Source: Chloroflexota bacterium
GTDB taxonomy: Bacteria > Chloroflexota > UBA6077 > JACCZL01
NCBI GenBank assembly: GCA_020850535.1
Contig: JADZEM010000065.1
Span: 1 to 51,113, forward strand
Direction: 5' to 3'
Length of the DNA: 51,113 bases
The notes under the pieces are model-generated. The model ran no database searches and was not told where the DNA came from. It saw only the letters and a list, made by a program, of their open reading frames with translations. Shown here piece by piece: positions 12,405 through 33,130 of the stretch (its first letter is position 1; every line of letters begins with the position of its first letter). A program made the position numbers and the translations under genes.

Positions 12405-13982
12405 TCACCGGTCCGATCGGCTCTGACGCCGCCCGGTGGCCGTGCGGACCGATCCGACGGGCTGGGCCTGCACCAGCAGCGCAGCGGCGTTGAGCAGGTC
12501 GTCGTGGCCACGGTGCTCGGGCACGAAGAAGCTCATGACTTGCCCGGCGCGCATGGCGTACTCGGCGGCCTCGCACTGGCGCAGCAGTTCGCGGCGCAGA
12601 TCGTTGGCAGCCGGATCGGTCAGGAGTATCGGGGCGCCCGTCTCCTTCGGACATTCCCCCGCCTCGGCATAGAGCTTCAGGCGGCCAGCGTTGACGGCCG
12701 ACAGGAAGTCGTAGGCGAGCTGGCTCTTGCTGGCCGCCGTGTACCGGAACGGCCTGACGATGGCCGGCCCAAGCGCCGCGCCCAGGAACGCCGCCAGTCC
12801 GCCGCCGACGCCGGTGGCGTCCACCACCACCGAGCGGCAGCGCCAGCGCTCGCTGACCAGCGCCAGGATGCGCGGGTACAGCTCGCGATGGCGGTCGCCG
12901 CGCCACGCATACTGGTGCACGATCTCGAAGCGCGGCTCCAGGACGCGCTCGCCGATCCGCGTCTGGGCCGCGTAGGCGATGGTCAGGACGGTGGAGTCGC
13001 GGCGCGGGTTGACACGGACGGCCTCGCCGGACGGGTCCTCCTCGTCCTCGCCGGCCACGTCCAGGCCGGCCACGTAAGCGCCCGGCCCCGCGCGGCGCGC
13101 GGACGGGGCGTCCTCGGGCGGGTGCTCCCCCAGCAGCAGCCCGAGCTGTCCGGCGTCGAGGAAGCGCCCACCACCGGCCACGGTGCGGAGCAGATACTGC
13201 GTCCGCACAATCGGGTGGTGCTCCCCGAGCCGGGCGATCTCTCCCTCGACGTGTCGACCGTAGGCCGGGTTCGCATCGGCCACGGCTGACCAGTCCACCT
13301 GGAAGTGCCGGCGGACGCCGTCCCGGGCCTCGGCCTCGCGGTTCAGGGCGACCTGGCGGGCCAGCAGCGTGTCGTCGGTCCAGGGGGTGCCGTAGAGGAC
13401 GCTGGCGGCGTTGGCGGTGGCGGCCATCGGGCGGAAGTCTTTCTCCCACTTGTCTGGCAGCACGTCCTGGGCCTCGTCGCACTCCAGCAGCAGGCTGGCG
13501 GTCCCGCCGACGACGTGCGCGCCCGGCTCAGCCGAGTAGAACGCGATGCTGGCCCGCCCCAGCACGACGATGTGGCCATCGCGCCGCCGCCACTGGCCGC
13601 CCGTCAGCGGGTTGTCGAGCGTCCGCAGCAGCCGCGCCACCGAGACGAGCACCTGCGGCCGGTAGGTTGGCGCGCACTTGACGATGCTGCCGCCTCGGCG
13701 CTGGCGGCGCGTCAGCAGGTACGCCTCCAGGTGGGCGGACAGCTCGTTCTTGCCGCTCTGGCGCGGCAGCATCACCGTCAACTGGCGGCCGCCACCATCC
13801 TCGATGGCGCGCAGGACCGACCGGGCGATCTCCGCCTGATACGGGCGCAGCGGCATCGCGAGCAGGCGGGCCGAGAACGTCTCGATGTCCCCGAGCAGGC
13901 GGCGCAGGGCCGCGGGCCGGCCCCCGCTGCTCGCACTGCCGGCCGCCTGGGGTTCCGTTCGCCGTGTCGTGTCGTCTCGCAT
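12405..13982 (-). CDS. Orphan phage terminase large subunit-like protein
   Basis: A 525-residue protein with the two halves of a terminase large subunit. The ATPase half has a Walker A-like LPRQSGKN near residue 73 and a Walker B-like LLLECDEAQD near 160. The nuclease half has acidic motifs GLDVAGED near 310, VVVDATGVG near 385 and a C-terminal HDDLLNA near 494, as in RNase H-like terminase nucleases. In phages such proteins pump DNA into capsids; here there are no capsid, portal or small-terminase genes within reach, so the role is unclear. GGGAGGG precedes ATG 13982. The frame stays open far upstream on the opposite side of the amidohydrolase gene, which I treat as chance. A related fragment lies at 5994-6045. 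Confidence 0.8.
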   Translation of the reverse strand: MRDDTTRRTEPQAAGSASSGGRPAALRRLLGDIETFSARLLAMPLRPYQAEIARSVLRAIEDGGGRQLTVMLPRQSGKNELSAHLEAYLLTRRQRRGGSIVKCAPTYRPQVLVSVARLLRTLDNPLTGGQWRRRDGHIVVLGRASIAFYSAEPGAHVVGGTASLLLECDEAQDVLPDKWEKDFRPMAATANAASVLYGTPWTDDTLLARQVALNREAEARDGVRRHFQVDWSAVADANPAYGRHVEGEIARLGEHHPIVRTQYLLRTVAGGGRFLDAGQLGLLLGEHPPEDAPSARRAGPGAYVAGLDVAGEDEEDPSGEAVRVNPRRDSTVLTIAYAAQTRIGERVLEPRFEIVHQYAWRGDRHRELYPRILALVSERWRCRSVVVDATGVGGGLAAFLGAALGPAIVRPFRYTAASKSQLAYDFLSAVNAGRLKLYAEAGECPKETGAPILLTDPAANDLRRELLRQCEAAEYAMRAGQVMSFFVPEHRGHDDLLNAAALLVQAQPVGSVRTATGRRQSRSDR

Positions 13983-15302: not shown

Positions 15303-15388
15303 CAGGGCGATTGCATGTTGGGCGCGTCATGCAGCGCAGTCGGGGCGTACCACGTTCTGGGAACGCCAACGAACATGCGATTGCCATG
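15303..15388 (+). mobile_element. Internally deleted MITE-like element (86 bp) with 10-bp target duplication
   Basis: The left end is CAGGGCGATTGCATGTT and the right end is AACATGCGATTGCCATG, an imperfect match that has drifted at two or three bases. The central hairpins of the full-length copies are missing. GGCCTGAGGG is duplicated on both sides (15293-15302 and 15389-15398). The target overlaps the stop codon of the amidohydrolase gene. Confidence 0.85.
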
Positions 15389-16541: not shown

Positions 16542-17933
16542 GTGCCCACTGCCGACTCGCTCATCACCGTCAACGGGCGTGACTACCGCCTGCCGCGCCG
16601 CCCGACCGTCGTCATCACCGTCGACGGCTGCCAGCCGGCCTACCTCGACGATGGCATGGCGCGTGGCCTGATGCCCCGCCTCTCGGCGCTGCTGGCCGGC
16701 GACGGCGCGTACCACCTCGGGCGCGGGCAGATGCCCTCGCTGACCAACCCGAACAACGTCTCCATCGTGACGGGCGTGGCTCCCGCCGTCCACGGCATCC
16801 CCGGCAACCACTTCCGCGCGCCAGACGGCTCCGAAGTCCAATTGACGGACCCGGCCCACCTGCGCTGCCCGACGATCCTGGGGGAGATGCAGCGGGCTGG
16901 CGAGCTCGGGCTGCCCGGCCTGGGCATCGCCGACGTGCCGGCCGTCGTCGGGCGGCCGGCCCCGAAGATCTACGAGTGGGACGCCAGCGCCTACGCCGCC
17001 GAGATCGGGCTGACCGTTCACCGGCACCTGCTGGCGCGCGATGGGCGCGGCCTCGACCTGTTGTACGTCTCGACCACCGACTTCGTCCAGCACAAGGAAG
17101 CCCCCGGCAGGGCGATTGCATGTTGATGTCGTCGTGCCGCCGCGTCGGGGCTTGAAAGCCCCGCCTACCGTCCTGCAGTCGCTGCGCGACGCTCCAGTCT
17201 CACCGGACGACGGCTGTTCCCGGTCTCCGTCGCGCAGCGACGGAATGACTGTAGGCGGGGGTTTCAACCCCCGACCGCCCGTTCCATGATGCTTCGGGGA
17301 CACCAATGAACATGCAATCGCCCTGAAGCCCCCGGCGGGCCGATGGCCGACCAGTTCTATCGGCGCTTCGACCAGTTGCTGGGCGAGTTTCTGGATGCCG
17401 GGTTCGTGGTCGGATTCACGGCGGACCACGGCATGAACGCCAAGCAGCAGCCGGACGGCGCGCCGCGCGTCATCTACCTGGAGGACGTGCTCGACCACCT
17501 GGGCGTCCGCGACTACCACGTCGTGCTGCCGATCACCGATCCGTACGTCCTGCACCACGGGGCGCTCGGATCGTTCGCCTGGGTCTACCTGCCCGAGGCG
17601 GATCGCGAGCGCGCCCGCGCGGCCTTCGTGGCGCTCGACGGCGTCGAGGAGGTCTACCCCCGCGAGGAGGCCGCCGTCATCTACGAGCATCCGGCCGACC
17701 GCATCGGCGATCTGACCGTGGCGTCGGATGCGCGGACGGCGCTCGGGAAGGCGCAGTCCAAGCACGACCTGTCGCTAGTCGAGACGGGGCTGCGCTCGCA
17801 CGGGGGCCGCCACGAGCAGATCGTGCCGATCGTGGTGAGCCACCCGTTGAAGCCACGGTATGCGGCGTGGCACGCGGCCGGCGCGCAGAGCCGCGACCTG
17901 TTCGACTTCGTGCTGAACGGCATCGAAGGGTAG
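16542..17933 (+). pseudogene. Phosphonoacetate hydrolase-like gene interrupted by a MITE
   Basis: Both halves belong to one alkaline-phosphatase-superfamily hydrolase resembling phosphonoacetate hydrolase, which cleaves phosphonoacetate to acetate and phosphate. The first half has VVITVDGCQPAYLD, SLTNPNNVSIVTG and YVSTTDFVQHKEAPG; the second has GFTADHGMNAK, ITDPYVLHHGALGSFAWVYLP and RSHGGRHEQIVP. A 218-bp element at 17108-17325 separates them and brings a stop at 17124-17126. Removing the element plus one target copy (228 bp, 76 codons) restores one frame. From memory of the family, about 40 residues after TILGEMQRAGE also seem to be missing, which would be a second lesion. GTG 16542 has GGAGG 6 bp upstream. 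An ATG at 17343 could start a C-terminal fragment, but it would lack the first metal ligands. Confidence 0.85.
17108..17325 (+). mobile_element. MITE-like element (218 bp) inside a gene, 10-bp target duplication
   Basis: This is the reference copy. The ends CAGGGCGATTGCATGTT and AACATGCAATCGCCCTG are perfect inverted repeats. AAGCCCCCGG is duplicated at 17098-17107 and 17326-17335; counting the outer G and C, the repeated string is 12 bp. Inside, a block with GGGGCTTGAAAGCCCC and CCGCCTAC is mirrored by GTAGGCGG and GGGGTTTCAACCCC, and a GTCGCTGCGCGAC hairpin is mirrored by GTCGCGCAGCGAC, so the element is a near-palindrome. It has no coding capacity and must depend on a transposase encoded elsewhere. 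Confidence 0.92.
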
Positions 17934-17974
17934 GAGCGGCACGCGGTCGCCCACATCCGTCGATATAGGCGCAA

Positions 17975-17980
17975 TATAAT
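17975..17980 (+). promoter_or_regulatory. Candidate -10 box (TATAAT) before the flagellin-like gene
   Basis: A consensus TATAAT lies in an unusually AT-rich patch (about 17960-17990) of this GC-rich region, 110 bp upstream of the flagellin-like start. No good -35 box is seen at the expected distance. Confidence 0.4.
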
Positions 17981-18089
17981 CTTTACATCCAGCGCGCAAA
18001 CGCGATAGCATGATGGTGAAGGCGCGCGGTCATCGCTGGCAGGCTCGGTGGCGGGCGCTCCTACCGCTCACCCTCCGGAGGCCGCGCTC

Positions 18090-18926
18090 GTGCCCGTCCC
18101 GCCCTTGCCGTTCTTCCGATCACCTCGGGACAACGACGCGCTGGCCGGCCGTAGTGGCCTGGCGGGTGGCTTGCGCATGCAGATCGCGCGCATCGGCCCC
18201 GCCGACGACGCCGAGAGCGGCCTGCTGAGCAGCATCGACGGTGGCGGCACGCCGGCCATGCTGGTGGACGACAGCCGGGCATCCATCGCCGCGCTCAACG
18301 AGGCGCGTGACCGTGCAGCACAGGTCGGAACGGGCCTGGAGCAGCTCGAATCGGCAGCGGACAGCGCGACGACCGTCAAGACGCTCCTGGCCCAGCTTGG
18401 AGACGCGGTGGTGGTCAGCACCGGCCACGGCATGCAGCCGCAGGAGCGCGCGGCACTGCAGCGTCAGGTCAACGAACTGCTGGGCGAGATCGACTCCCTT
18501 GCCGACGGGACGCTGTTCAACCAGGAGCTGCTGCGGCCCGGGATACGCAGCGCCTCGGGGCAAACCGCCACCCCCGCCCCGTTCAAGCAGATCAGCACCT
18601 CGGCGCTGGGCCTGACCGAGCTGTCGGTGCGCTCCTCAGACCAGGCCGTCGCCGCATCCGGCGCCCTCGACCTGGCCGGCACGCGGCTGGATCGCGCCGC
18701 CGACGCCGTCCGGCGGGCGCAGGCGCGCCTCGAGGACGACCTGGATGCCCTGACCAGCCCGCCGCTCACGGCGACCGGCGAGCTGGCGTTGGGGAACTCG
18801 ACGGCGGCGTTCGGCACGACGATCCAGCTGCGCTCGGATCTGCTGTCCAGCCCTGGCGACGCCCTGCTGGCGCAGTCTGGCCTGGATGTCTCGCGGGTCT
18901 TCCGCCTGCTCGATACGTCGTCGTAG
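18090..18926 (+). CDS. Flagellin-like protein (D0/D1 helices only), orphan
   Basis: A 278-residue protein with the layout of flagellin lacking its variable middle. The N-terminal part has IGPADDAESGLL near residue 35 (compare ISSAADDAAGL of flagellins), then a long helix and the stretch ERAALQRQVNELLGEIDSLAD then LFNQELL near 120-150, which matches the conserved flagellin segment around ALQxEVxQLxxEIDxIA...FNGxxLL. The C-terminal part has ALGLTEL, a helix and a tail GDALLAQSGLDVSRVFRLLD resembling the flagellin end (MLxQANQxPxxVLxLL). GTG 18090 follows CCGGAGG at a 7-bp spacing. No other flagellar gene is in the window. It may be a true flagellin whose partners lie elsewhere, or a repurposed secreted helical protein. 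Confidence 0.65.
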   Translation: MPVPPLPFFRSPRDNDALAGRSGLAGGLRMQIARIGPADDAESGLLSSIDGGGTPAMLVDDSRASIAALNEARDRAAQVGTGLEQLESAADSATTVKTLLAQLGDAVVVSTGHGMQPQERAALQRQVNELLGEIDSLADGTLFNQELLRPGIRSASGQTATPAPFKQISTSALGLTELSVRSSDQAVAASGALDLAGTRLDRAADAVRRAQARLEDDLDALTSPPLTATGELALGNSTAAFGTTIQLRSDLLSSPGDALLAQSGLDVSRVFRLLDTSS

Positions 18927-18980: not shown

Positions 18981-20081
18981 ATGGGACAGACAGCGCCAGG
19001 AAGCATCCTCAACGCCTACGGCTTCGACGGTCTGTTCGCCGAGCGGTTCGAGCCGTACGGCGAGCAGGGGCTGCTGCCGGCCCGCGTGGTGGTCGAGTAC
19101 CAACACATCTACCGGGTGGTGACCGAGGGCGGCGAGCTGCTGGCGACGGTGGCCGGCCGGCTGCGGCACCGGGCGGGCGGGCGCGTGGACTACCCGGCCG
19201 TTGGCGACTGGGTGGGGCTGCGCCGCATCCCGAACACGACGGGCGAGGAGCGCGCCACCATCCACGGCGTCCTGGAGCGCAAGAGCCGCTTCGTGCGGAA
19301 GGTCGCGGGGAGCGTCGTGGCCGAGCAGGTGGTGGCGGCCAACGTGGACGTGGTGCTGCTGGTGATGGCGCTGGTGGACGCTGACTTCAGCCCGCGCCGG
19401 CTGGAACGGTACCTCGTGCTGGCACACGAGAGCGGCGCGCGTCCGGTCCTGGTGCTGACCAAAACCGATCTGTGCGACGACCTGAACGACCGGCTGTCTG
19501 CCGCCCGCGCAGTCACCGGCCCGAACCTGCCGATCCACACGGTGAGCCGCCCGCGCGACGAAGGGTATGACGACCTGTTCGCCTATCTCCAGCCCGGGCA
19601 GACGGTCGCGCTGCTCGGGTCATCGGGCGTCGGCAAATCCACCATCGTCAACCGGCTGGCCGGGCGCGAGCTGCAGCGCACCCAGGAGGTCCGCGAGTTC
19701 GACGGGCGCGGACGCCACACCACGACCCATCGGCAGTTGCTGCTGCTCGACGGCGGCGGCCTGATGATGGACACGCCCGGCATGCGCGAGCTGCAGCTCT
19801 GGGACGTGGACGAGGGTGTGGAAGAGACGTTCGCGGACATCGAGGACCTGGCGCTCCAGTGCCGCTTCCCGGACTGCCTGCACACGACGGAGCCAGGGTG
19901 TGCCGTGCTGGCGGCCGTCGAGGCGGGGACGCTGGGGCAGGATCGGCTGGAGAGCTACCACAAGCTGCGCCGCGAGCTGCGGGCGCTGGCGGCTCGCCAG
20001 GATCACCTGAACCGCCAGTTCGAGAAGCGGCGGGTGCGGGCGGCCACGAAGGCGTTCAACAAGCACGCGCCTCGGCGGTAA
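18981..20081 (+). CDS. rsgA: Ribosome small subunit biogenesis GTPase RsgA
   Basis: RsgA is a circularly permuted GTPase that helps mature the 30S ribosomal subunit. In the 366-residue product the G motifs occur in permuted order: G4 LTKTD near residue 156, then G1 GSSGVGKST near 214-222, then G3 DTPGMRE near 264. An N-terminal OB-fold covers about 30-110. The C-terminal zinc-binding part has the Cys/His set CRFPDCLHTTEPGC near 293-306, followed by a basic helical tail (EKRRVRAATKAFNKH). Length and motif order fit the family fully. The spacing to the flagellin-like gene is 54 bp. Confidence 0.95.
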   Translation: MGQTAPGSILNAYGFDGLFAERFEPYGEQGLLPARVVVEYQHIYRVVTEGGELLATVAGRLRHRAGGRVDYPAVGDWVGLRRIPNTTGEERATIHGVLERKSRFVRKVAGSVVAEQVVAANVDVVLLVMALVDADFSPRRLERYLVLAHESGARPVLVLTKTDLCDDLNDRLSAARAVTGPNLPIHTVSRPRDEGYDDLFAYLQPGQTVALLGSSGVGKSTIVNRLAGRELQRTQEVREFDGRGRHTTTHRQLLLLDGGGLMMDTPGMRELQLWDVDEGVEETFADIEDLALQCRFPDCLHTTEPGCAVLAAVEAGTLGQDRLESYHKLRRELRALAARQDHLNRQFEKRRVRAATKAFNKHAPRR

Positions 20082-30419: not shown

Positions 30420-30745
30420 GCGTTCTCCCGACGTACGTGCTGCACGGAGCTGCTGCCGGTCCTGCCCTGTTGCGGCACCATCATCTGTTGAGTGTCTCTT
30501 GCGACGCTGCGTCGTTCGGGCCGGAGCAGGCCGATATCAGATCGCAATAGTGAGGTCGCACACGCGCCAGCGTCGCGAGCATGGCACAGCATGCTGCGCG
30601 CCACCAGCCCAGAATCCTCGTGAGGGGGCCGGCTCCGAGCTATCATGCCGTGCTGGCCGAGATCGTGCTGTCATGACGCGGTCAGACACCGCTCACACCT
30701 GAGCCTCGTGGCCGGCCCCCGGTCGCGAGCGGACGAGGAGTGCTC
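30420..30745. other. Intergenic region between divergent genes
   Basis: The 326 bp separate the hydrolase (minus) from the sortase-substrate gene (plus) and should hold both promoters. TATCAT at 30641-30646 is a possible -10 box for the plus strand. No gene or repeat copy is seen. Confidence 0.4.
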
Positions 30746-31036
30746 ATGAAGCGCCTGCCTACCCTGATCGCAGTGCCCCTCGCCGCCACGGCGATGTTCG
30801 CCGCGTCGCTCGCAGCCCCGGCCGCGCCAGACGCTGCCGCCCAGGTGCCAGCGCCCAAGCCGACGGCCGCGCCGGCCGTCCCTGCCCCTGCTGCCAAGCC
30901 GGCGGGCGCGCCTGCCACCACCGCCCCACGCGCCGGCGGCATCCCGCTGGAGCTGGCGGGCGGACTCGTCGCCGGCGGGTCGGCGCTGATCGGCGGCGGC
31001 CTGTACGCCTTCCGACGGCGGAAGCACTCAGCCTGA
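30746..31036 (+). CDS. Small surface protein with a sortase-type sorting signal
   Basis: A 96-residue exported protein. It has a signal peptide (LPTLIAVPLAATAMFAASLAAPAAP), a low-complexity Ala/Pro/Lys linker of about 35 residues, and a C-terminal tripartite tail: the motif APRAGG, a hydrophobic helix (LAGGLVAGGSALIGGGLYAF) and a basic end RRRKHSA. This is the layout of a cell-wall sorting signal with APRAGG in the place of LPxTG. There is almost no folded domain between the two ends. GAGGAG lies before ATG 30746. A sortase gene starts 48 bp downstream, so this is probably its dedicated substrate. Confidence 0.7.
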   Translation: MKRLPTLIAVPLAATAMFAASLAAPAAPDAAAQVPAPKPTAAPAVPAPAAKPAGAPATTAPRAGGIPLELAGGLVAGGSALIGGGLYAFRRRKHSA

Positions 31037-31084
31037 TCGCCCGGGCGACCGTTCGCTTGCCCCATGCGCCCATGAGCCCGTCCC

Positions 31085-33130
31085 GTGGCTGACCGACTCC
31101 CGAAGCTGCTGGCCGGGTTGGCGGTGCTGCTCGGCGTCGGAGTGGTCGGCGTCGGCCTGAGCGTCTTCGTCGAGGCGTGGCAGGCGAACCAGGCCTGGGC
31201 CGGGACCGCGCACGCCCCGCAGGCGGACCTCCCCTCCGAGCAGCCGCCGCTCTGGCTCGACGCCGCGCCGACGGCCACGCGTGGACCCACACCGCAACCG
31301 GCGGAAGCCCCTCACCCCCCGACCCCCTCTCCCGCACGCGGGAGAGGGGGAGAGAATGCACTGCCTCGTTCTGGAGCGGCAGAGGTGGTAAGCGGCCCCG
31401 CTCCACGCCGTGAAGATGGCAGAACAGCGATCCCCCCTCCGCTCCGCGCTGGAGATGATGTCGGCGAAGCTCCTGAGCGATGTCGTTCCGCAGAACGATA
31501 TTCGCGCTCCGCGGGAGCTTGCGAGCCGAAGGATAGTCGCGCCGCGCAGCGGGGCCGGGGGGATGAGGTTCACCCGGATCTGGGGGCTGAGGTTCCTCCC
31601 GAGGCCCGAGGGAGTGATGTCGGCCAGCAGGGCGCCGTCGCCCCTGAGGCGCCGGCGGCCGTCGCCGCTCCCGCTGACCTTGACCTGACCGAGGCCGATT
31701 TCCGCTTCCTCGATCCGCCGGAGCCGGGCGCGCATGCCCGCCTCGCCGTGACGATCCAGAACCGGAGTGTCGCCGGCACCGGCCCGATCTCCCTGGTGCT
31801 GGCGCAGCGCTGGCTTCAGTCGTACACGGTCCTGGGGGCGGCGCCGGCCGTCCTCGACGACCGCCCGGACGGGGAGGCCGCCCGCCGCTTCATCTTCGCG
31901 CCGCTCGGCCCTGGCGAGCGCCAGACTGTCGAACTGCACCTGATCGCCACGGCTGATGAGGTCGACGGCCCCGAGGTGCGCGTCCTGCTGGGGGAGGACG
32001 CCGAGATCGGCAAGGCCCAGCCGCGCACTGTCGCGCCGCGCCCGCGCCCCGGGCCTGCCCGCACGGTGGTGGTGCCCAGGCTGAACGTGCGCGCCCCCGT
32101 GGTGCCCGTCACCTGGGAGCCGCCGCCGTTCGTCATCGGGCAGGTGCAGGGCTCGGCGGCCGTCAGCGAGGGCAACACGGTGCTGATCGGGCACCTGGCC
32201 GGCCCGCAAGGCGACGTCTTCGCCCGGCTGGGTCAACTGCGGCCCGGCGACACGGTGACGGCCACCTCGCGCGGCGTCGAGTACATATTTGTGGTCAGCG
32301 ACATCTCGGTGCGCCCGTACACGGATGTCTCGCCCACCGAGCCGACTGGCACGCCGCGCCTCACCCTGATGACCTGCACCGGCCAGTGGAGCGTCGCGCG
32401 GCAGGACTACTCGCACCGGCTGTGGGTCGTGGCCGAGCCGGCCGAGCTGGCCCAGCAGACGATTCGTGCGAACGCCGAGCGCGCCGCGCAAGCCGCCCGC
32501 GAGGCCGAGATCGCATCGGCCCAGCGGGCGGCCCACGAAGCAGCGGTCGACGCCCAGGCGACCCAGGCCGCCGCTGGCTCGCCGTCCGGGGCGGCGACGC
32601 AGGGAGCCGCGCAGCCGGCCAGCGATCCGGCAGCGGCGGGCGGCCCGCCATCGGCCACGGCGCACAGTGACGCGCCGGCCGGCCCTGATGGCTCGTCGGT
32701 CGCCGCTGACGGCTCGTCGGTCAACCTGACACCTGGGGCTGCTGAGGCACAGGAGCCGCGCGCGCCCGGCATCCTGCTCGACGCGCCGACCGAGGGCGGG
32801 CGCGTCCCCGAGCGGCTGACGGTGCGCGGCCGGCGCACCCCGGACGCCGATCAGGCCGGGCCGCTCTGGCTGTTCGTGCGGGCGGAGGTTGAGGGCAGCC
32901 GGTGGTACGCCCTGCCCCGTCCGCTGGAGATCGATGCCGAGGGCCGCTGGCAGGCCGACCTCGTGCTGGGCGGCGCTGCCGGCATCCGCCACGAGATCCG
33001 CGTCGGCCCGCTCCCGCCCGACGCCGACGCCCTGCTGCGCCGCCACGCCAGCGAGCGCCCTGGGCAGCCCCTCGACGCCCTGCCGGCCGGGTTTGTCCTC
33101 GGCGCGCGGATCACCGTCGAGCGCCGCTGA
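31085..33130 (+). CDS. Sortase with long linker and C-terminal extension
   Basis: A 681-residue membrane-anchored transpeptidase. An N-terminal membrane helix (LLAGLAVLLGVGVVGVGLSVFV) precedes a long, low-complexity linker. The catalytic domain spans about 330-455: His370 in VLIGHLAG, Cys431 in LMTCTGQW and Arg445 in YSHRLWVV form the sortase triad. A second domain from about 560 to 681 (LLDAPTEGGRVPERLTVRG onward) looks like a beta-sandwich. Most sortases have 200-300 residues, so it is unusually large. Residues about 74-185 are encoded by repeat-like DNA (see 31309). GTG 31085 is the likely start. It should attach proteins such as the one encoded just upstream. Confidence 0.87.
   Translation: MADRLPKLLAGLAVLLGVGVVGVGLSVFVEAWQANQAWAGTAHAPQADLPSEQPPLWLDAAPTATRGPTPQPAEAPHPPTPSPARGRGGENALPRSGAAEVVSGPAPRREDGRTAIPPPLRAGDDVGEAPERCRSAERYSRSAGACEPKDSRAAQRGRGDEVHPDLGAEVPPEARGSDVGQQGAVAPEAPAAVAAPADLDLTEADFRFLDPPEPGAHARLAVTIQNRSVAGTGPISLVLAQRWLQSYTVLGAAPAVLDDRPDGEAARRFIFAPLGPGERQTVELHLIATADEVDGPEVRVLLGEDAEIGKAQPRTVAPRPRPGPARTVVVPRLNVRAPVVPVTWEPPPFVIGQVQGSAAVSEGNTVLIGHLAGPQGDVFARLGQLRPGDTVTATSRGVEYIFVVSDISVRPYTDVSPTEPTGTPRLTLMTCTGQWSVARQDYSHRLWVVAEPAELAQQTIRANAERAAQAAREAEIASAQRAAHEAAVDAQATQAAAGSPSGAATQGAAQPASDPAAAGGPPSATAHSDAPAGPDGSSVAADGSSVNLTPGAAEAQEPRAPGILLDAPTEGGRVPERLTVRGRRTPDADQAGPLWLFVRAEVEGSRWYALPRPLEIDAEGRWQADLVLGGAAGIRHEIRVGPLPPDADALLRRHASERPGQPLDALPAGFVLGARITVERR
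31309..31350. repeat. Dispersed hairpin repeat inside the sortase coding sequence
   Basis: CCCCCTCTCCCGC (31323-31335) and its reverse complement (31338-31350) form a 13-bp stem preceded by CCCTCACCCCCC, the hallmark of the hairpin family otherwise found between genes (24597, 49023, 49135). Here it is read as HPPTPSPARGRGG within the sortase. The following 290 bp to about 31640 also look extragenic in composition (many Arg/Gly/Ser codons, no conserved motifs), yet stay open in frame. Confidence 0.7.

Follow-up and report, generated by a model that had tools for sequence, protein, structure and literature searches.

Ordinary flagellins start with a D0 helix followed by the spoke motif RINxAxDDAAGLxIS, and their export signal lies in the N-terminal part. 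FliW contacts flagellin near the N-terminal helices, protecting residues 11–34 and 50–72, and FliS contacts the C-terminal tail (PMC6070490). Campylobacter FlaC is secreted and not assembled, and it binds FliS and not FliW (PMC5466977). FlaE and FlaF, the flagellin-homologous proteins of Vibrio vulnificus, are exported and not assembled; they strengthen the biofilm and were shown to bind exopolysaccharide (PMC6692518). In Caulobacter, FljJ acts together with FlbT in controlling translation (PMC7591256), and the Sphingomonas cell-surface flagellin was reported, in a title cited in PMC13015449, to bind a polysaccharide.

The gene described here is located in a 51,113-bp stretch of DNA (the window), which is the entire contig C65 of a Chloroflexota assembly (7.65 Mb, 227 contigs). 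The open reading frame at 18,090–18,926 (+), with its stop codon ending at 18,926, is real, as indicated by a Pfam match, the profile score, a ribosome-binding site, and the third-position GC content (0.88–0.90), which was like that of the adjoining genes. Two start codons are candidates, GTG at 18,090 (278 amino acids) and GTG at 18,048 (292 amino acids), and the ribosome-binding site GGAGG is located approximately 10 nt 5' of the former. The AT-rich region noted 5' of the gene in the first-pass annotation was confirmed; the GC content falls to 0.45–0.53, compared with 0.70, in the intergenic stretch at 17,930–18,020 (+), where the GC dip and a consensus match only (TTTACA-18-TAGCAT at 17,982–18,011) indicate a putative promoter. 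A sigma-28-type promoter (TAA-N14..16-GCCGATA[AT]) was not found within the window and was present in three loci of relatives. On the 3' side, rsgA starts at 18,981. Linkage to rsgA was not conserved in the relatives inspected: no flagellin-like gene was found beside rsgA in four of them (G002, G012, G007, and G004) or in the approximately 1.2 kb visible upstream of rsgA in a fifth (G015).

A phosphodiesterase (PF01663) gene is present in two parts (16,542–17,126 and 17,343–17,933) because an element of approximately 218 bp, bounded by 20-nt terminal inverted repeats (CAGGGCGATTGCATGTTGAT), interrupts it at 17,108–17,325. The ends of the element overlap with an imperfect 23-nt direct repeat (GAAGCCCCCGGC...), and the element looks like a MITE. 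When up to three mismatches are allowed, the window contains eight copies of its terminal repeat, with none expected by chance (sites at 57–304, 2550–2766, 15,303–15,322, and 17,108–17,325), and translated pieces like its inner part occur on contig C123 of the same assembly (L011, 2474–3502); thus, the element probably belongs to a repeat family of this genome. Elsewhere in the window, the product of an open reading frame at 12,405–13,844 (−) reads like a terminase-type ATPase (PRQSGKNE and ECDEAQD), with no Pfam match up to an E-value of 1e-5 and no phage genes recognized beside it. At 30,740–33,127, an apparently secreted 98-residue protein with a basic C-terminal tail directly precedes a 681-residue sortase-domain (PF04203) protein, and the two are possibly a surface-anchoring pair.

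Judged from its sequence, the gene product is a genuine flagellin homologue. The Pfam model Flagellin_N (PF00669), which places it in the flagellin superfamily, scored 29.8 bits (cut-off of 26.6, E-value of 7e-7), with the match spanning only positions 51–133 of the 139 in the profile, and no match to Flagellin_C (PF00700) was listed up to an E-value of 10. Solved flagellin structures were retrieved using phmmer, the best being 9hpz, which aligned with residues 58–274. As the protein is alanine-rich and helical, its composition was controlled for by shuffling and reversal. With a profile built from 38 ordinary flagellins (alignment A3, from which the row of the window protein was left out), the protein scored 43.2 bits over residues 60–274; the best whole shuffle reached 7.8 bits, and neither local shuffles nor the reversed sequence came near. 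None of 2000 shuffles equaled the score of residues 60–150 (29.4 bits) or that of residues 151–278 (16.6 bits); each half of D1 is therefore recognizable without the other, and their order is correct. Sequence identity to the aligned flagellins is low (23–30%). These searches upheld the flagellin-like identity proposed in the first-pass annotation and its description of a protein with almost no variable center, as the D2/D3 center is absent. A hook-like protein, which had also been suggested, was not supported by the scores: the FliC profile gave 18.4 bits, above every shuffle, and the FlgL profile built from the class gave 6.8 bits, within the shuffle range (best of 8.2). On these scores, FlgL identity was rejected.

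The recognizable homology comprises D1 (residues about 60–222) and a weak C-terminal D0 helix. The N-terminal D1 helices (18,252–18,509, +; residues 55–110 and 117–140 in the model) end in the ID..A..T.FN motif; they scored 28.7–29.4 bits, a level reached by no shuffle, and had pLDDT values of 81–98 over most of their length. The stretch ERAALQRQVNELLGEIDSLAD falls in D1, the best-matching part (0 of 2000 shuffles). The C-terminal D1 helix (18,636–18,755, +; residues 183–222) had pLDDT values of 86–97, and residues 160–225 scored 11.8 bits, again with none of 2000 shuffles as good. In the C-terminal spoke and D0-like tail (18,762–18,911, +; residues 225–274), the ESRIRDxD motif is lost, only one of 11 conserved spoke positions is left, and LLAQ...VFRLL is weakly kept. 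The tail (residues 225–278) scored 3.5 bits with a purpose-built profile, a marginal result equaled by eight of 2000 shuffles; the proposed C-terminal signature ALLAQSGL..VFRLLD is therefore a real match but a weak one.

Residues 1–54 (18,090–18,251, +) contain no recognizable N-terminal D0 helix. With the N-terminal D0 profile, the window protein scored 0.3 bits, and 179 of 1000 shuffles were equally good, whereas the flagellins of the same genome scored 46–57 bits (56.9 bits for its own FliC). With the 38-flagellin profile, residues 1–59 scored −1.7 bits, which was reached by 50 of 2000 shuffles. The region is predicted to be disordered (pLDDT mostly below 50) and is rich in proline and glycine, with nine such residues in the first 34 compared with 0–4 in the 38 ordinary flagellins. 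ADDAESGLL, proposed as an N-terminal flagellin signature, was placed at the spoke by MAFFT with an insertion of approximately 12 residues after it; the spoke profile did not score it above shuffles, and the proposal was not confirmed. A frameshifted D0 was ruled out, as no D0 helix was found in any other frame upstream of or around the gene. Of the paired D0 and D1 helices expected for a flagellin, only the D1 pair is present; with the N-terminal D0 helix unrecognizable, the proposed minimal flagellin is not supported if the term means a subunit with both D0 and D1 intact.

The structure predicted without an alignment had a mean pLDDT of only 49, yet its helices followed the flagellin order. 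When the 38 aligned flagellins were supplied, the pLDDT increased to 72 overall and exceeded 90 in much of D1, where the helices are antiparallel, and residues 1–52 were nearly unstructured. This model matched PDB flagellins (best E-value of 2e-6), with Z of 15–18 in a fold list that re-examines the matches of Foldseek itself, so that folds outside that list stay possible. Because it leans on ordinary flagellins, the alignment-based model backs the D1 assignment and is not evidence separate from the sequence comparison.

The first-pass annotation was correct that no flagellar genes lie nearby, as no flagellar Pfam match was obtained among the other scanned proteins of the 51-kb contig. In the same assembly, contigs C101 and C95 encode two or three flagellins of the ordinary kind, C78 carries two FliS genes and FliD, and C123 has genes for CsrA, FliW, FlgL, FlgK, two FlgF/G-type proteins, a FliA-type sigma factor, FlhA, FlhB, and FliR; thus, export gate genes exist in this genome, and an ordinary flgL adjoins flgK. 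The gene can consequently be called an orphan in its neighborhood but not in its genome, and it may, as suggested, belong to a distant flagellar cluster, although its description as a minimal D0–D1 flagellin is not supported. The two FliS genes are close together (L177, G000:C78, 18,518–18,859 and 19,833–20,174) and could serve different flagellins.

None of 28 further genomes of the class yielded an orthologue, and the other two members of its family (86% and 90% complete) had no flagellin match whatever. Searches of the class and 400 phylum genomes retrieved generic flagellins only (25–36% identity), and no close relative of the protein was found in the search of genome contigs, in plasmids and phages (tblastn), or, at a significant level, in PHROGs. 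Of the flagellins examined from the class and from the phylum hits, fragments apart, only this one has the D0-less form. Other N-truncated matches in relatives were rejected because they are either split frames or fragments truncated at the end of a contig or locus. Two further flagellins of the class, without recognized flagellar genes in the surrounding 12–19 kb (L015, 1499–2383, G023:C311; L014, 9522–10,487, G026:C19), both retain the N-terminal D0 helix. Flagellins of same-phylum genomes (e.g., G244) were closest to those of Thermoflexus and records labeled Chloroflexi. When flagellins and FlgLs were put into one tree, the window protein fell among FliC with weak support (32–50%); its branch, at 2.49 substitutions per site, was approximately eight times as long as the median (0.31). 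A 278-codon frame would be open by chance with a probability of approximately 0.009 at this composition. As the frame is open and the coding GC pattern is kept despite this extreme divergence, the gene was probably maintained by selection over most of its history, a conclusion drawn from one sequence. No paper was found under the phrase "orphan flagellin".

The explanation that we prefer, held tentatively and at slightly less than even confidence, is that the protein is a non-structural FliC-type paralogue, held by FliS and exported as a monomer. It would be a strongly diverged paralogue of the filament protein, retaining the D1 rod and a weak FliS-binding-type tail and having lost the N-terminal D0 helix and both D0–D1 spoke motifs. 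A normal place in the filament would then probably be impossible, and with its rod-like middle retained and no recognizable core-packing helix, the protein is probably a spare flagellin with a non-structural job. After being held by FliS, it would be released through the flagellar export gate and could act outside the cell or on its surface, similar to FlaC or the Vibrio proteins; the loss of polymerization, the export, and any extracellular role are what we infer from the anatomy. By analogy, this anatomy (N-terminal D0 gone, tail weakly kept) would suit a FlaC-like fate best and a decaying gene next. That a large share of the FliW-protected residues is missing also favors this explanation. 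Export is made less probable by the unrecognizable N-terminal export-signal region, and the preferred explanation as a whole by the lack of an orthologue in any other genome searched and of a linked gene for a dedicated chaperone or partner.

Decay of a former flagellin gene, in which the D0 ends were lost first and the frame is open by chance without present selection, is unlikely. It would account for the occurrence in one genome, the long branch, the degenerate N- and C-terminal spokes, and the interruption of the phosphodiesterase gene just upstream by the repeat element; however, a gene released early would have collected stops and frameshifts, and here 278 codons are open with the coding GC pattern kept after approximately 2.5 substitutions per site and with a ribosome-binding site present. 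A D0-less class of flagellin-derived proteins, in which a free D1 rod with a disordered leader has a new function inside or outside the cell, is also unlikely. We consider it quite unlikely that the protein is a cytosolic regulator that adjusts how much flagellin is made by binding FliS or some other flagellar partner, in the way that FljJ works with FlbT. With its N-terminal export part missing, a flagellin would tend to be retained in the cell, and the genome encodes FliW, CsrA, and two FliS proteins, but the FliW-protected region appears mostly missing from the protein, and the precedent itself, FljJ, is exported and assembled (PMC7591256). A minor filament or junction subunit with the D0 helix replaced by other sequence is distinctly improbable: the D1 helices and tail are in the correct order and spacing and the N-terminal stretch is approximately of D0 length, but that stretch is Pro/Gly-rich without the D0 pattern, and the conserved positions of the C-terminal spoke are nearly all lost. 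The low identity and the compositionally biased matches might suggest an alanine-rich coiled coil resembling flagellin by chance, which is extremely improbable given that shuffles and reversal came nowhere near and that both D1 halves matched independently and in order.

Compared with FliC (PF00669 and PF00700; e.g., the Roseburia hominis filament, 9hpz), the window protein shares the D1 rod, the ID..A..T.FN..LL motif, the absence of D2/D3, and, weakly, the tail; it differs in having no recognizable N-terminal D0, degenerate spokes, no Flagellin_C match, and a location outside any flagellar cluster. FlgL belongs to the same superfamily and also matches the D1 profile (35.7 bits for the FlgL of this genome and 28.4 bits for the window protein), but the FlgL profile does not score the window protein above shuffles. 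Similar to FljJ, it would be a specialized flagellin paralogue unable to form a filament alone (PMC7591256); however, FljJ is 49% identical to its paralogues, is assembled beside the hook after export, and works with FlbT. The model superimposed on the Sphingomonas cell-surface flagellin (2zbi, 3k8v, and 3k8w) with a Z of about 17 and an rmsd of 2.2–3.7 Å, no better than on ordinary flagellins; polysaccharide binding is reported for the Sphingomonas protein, which is a possible precedent for a flagellin with another surface role. Compared by description, V. vulnificus FlaE and FlaF are likewise flagellin paralogues additional to the filament builders, with demonstrated expression, export, and exopolysaccharide binding, whereas the window protein is known from its gene alone. 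As a gene of a single genome, it carries limited weight; the find is real but modest, a small departure from known flagellins represented by a single sequence. Should the protein be made, it would be a natural test of which flagellin parts are required for binding of chaperones, for export, and for assembly, because here a single gene sets D1 apart from the N-terminal D0. C. jejuni FlaC, also compared by description (PMC5466977), is a D2/D3-less paralogue of the filament subunits that is described as having D0–D1 and was shown to be secreted. The window protein lacks a recognizable N-terminal D0 and, by analogy with FlaC, possibly binds FliS without FliW; if made, it would be a possible Chloroflexota case among the few flagellins known to have non-structural roles.
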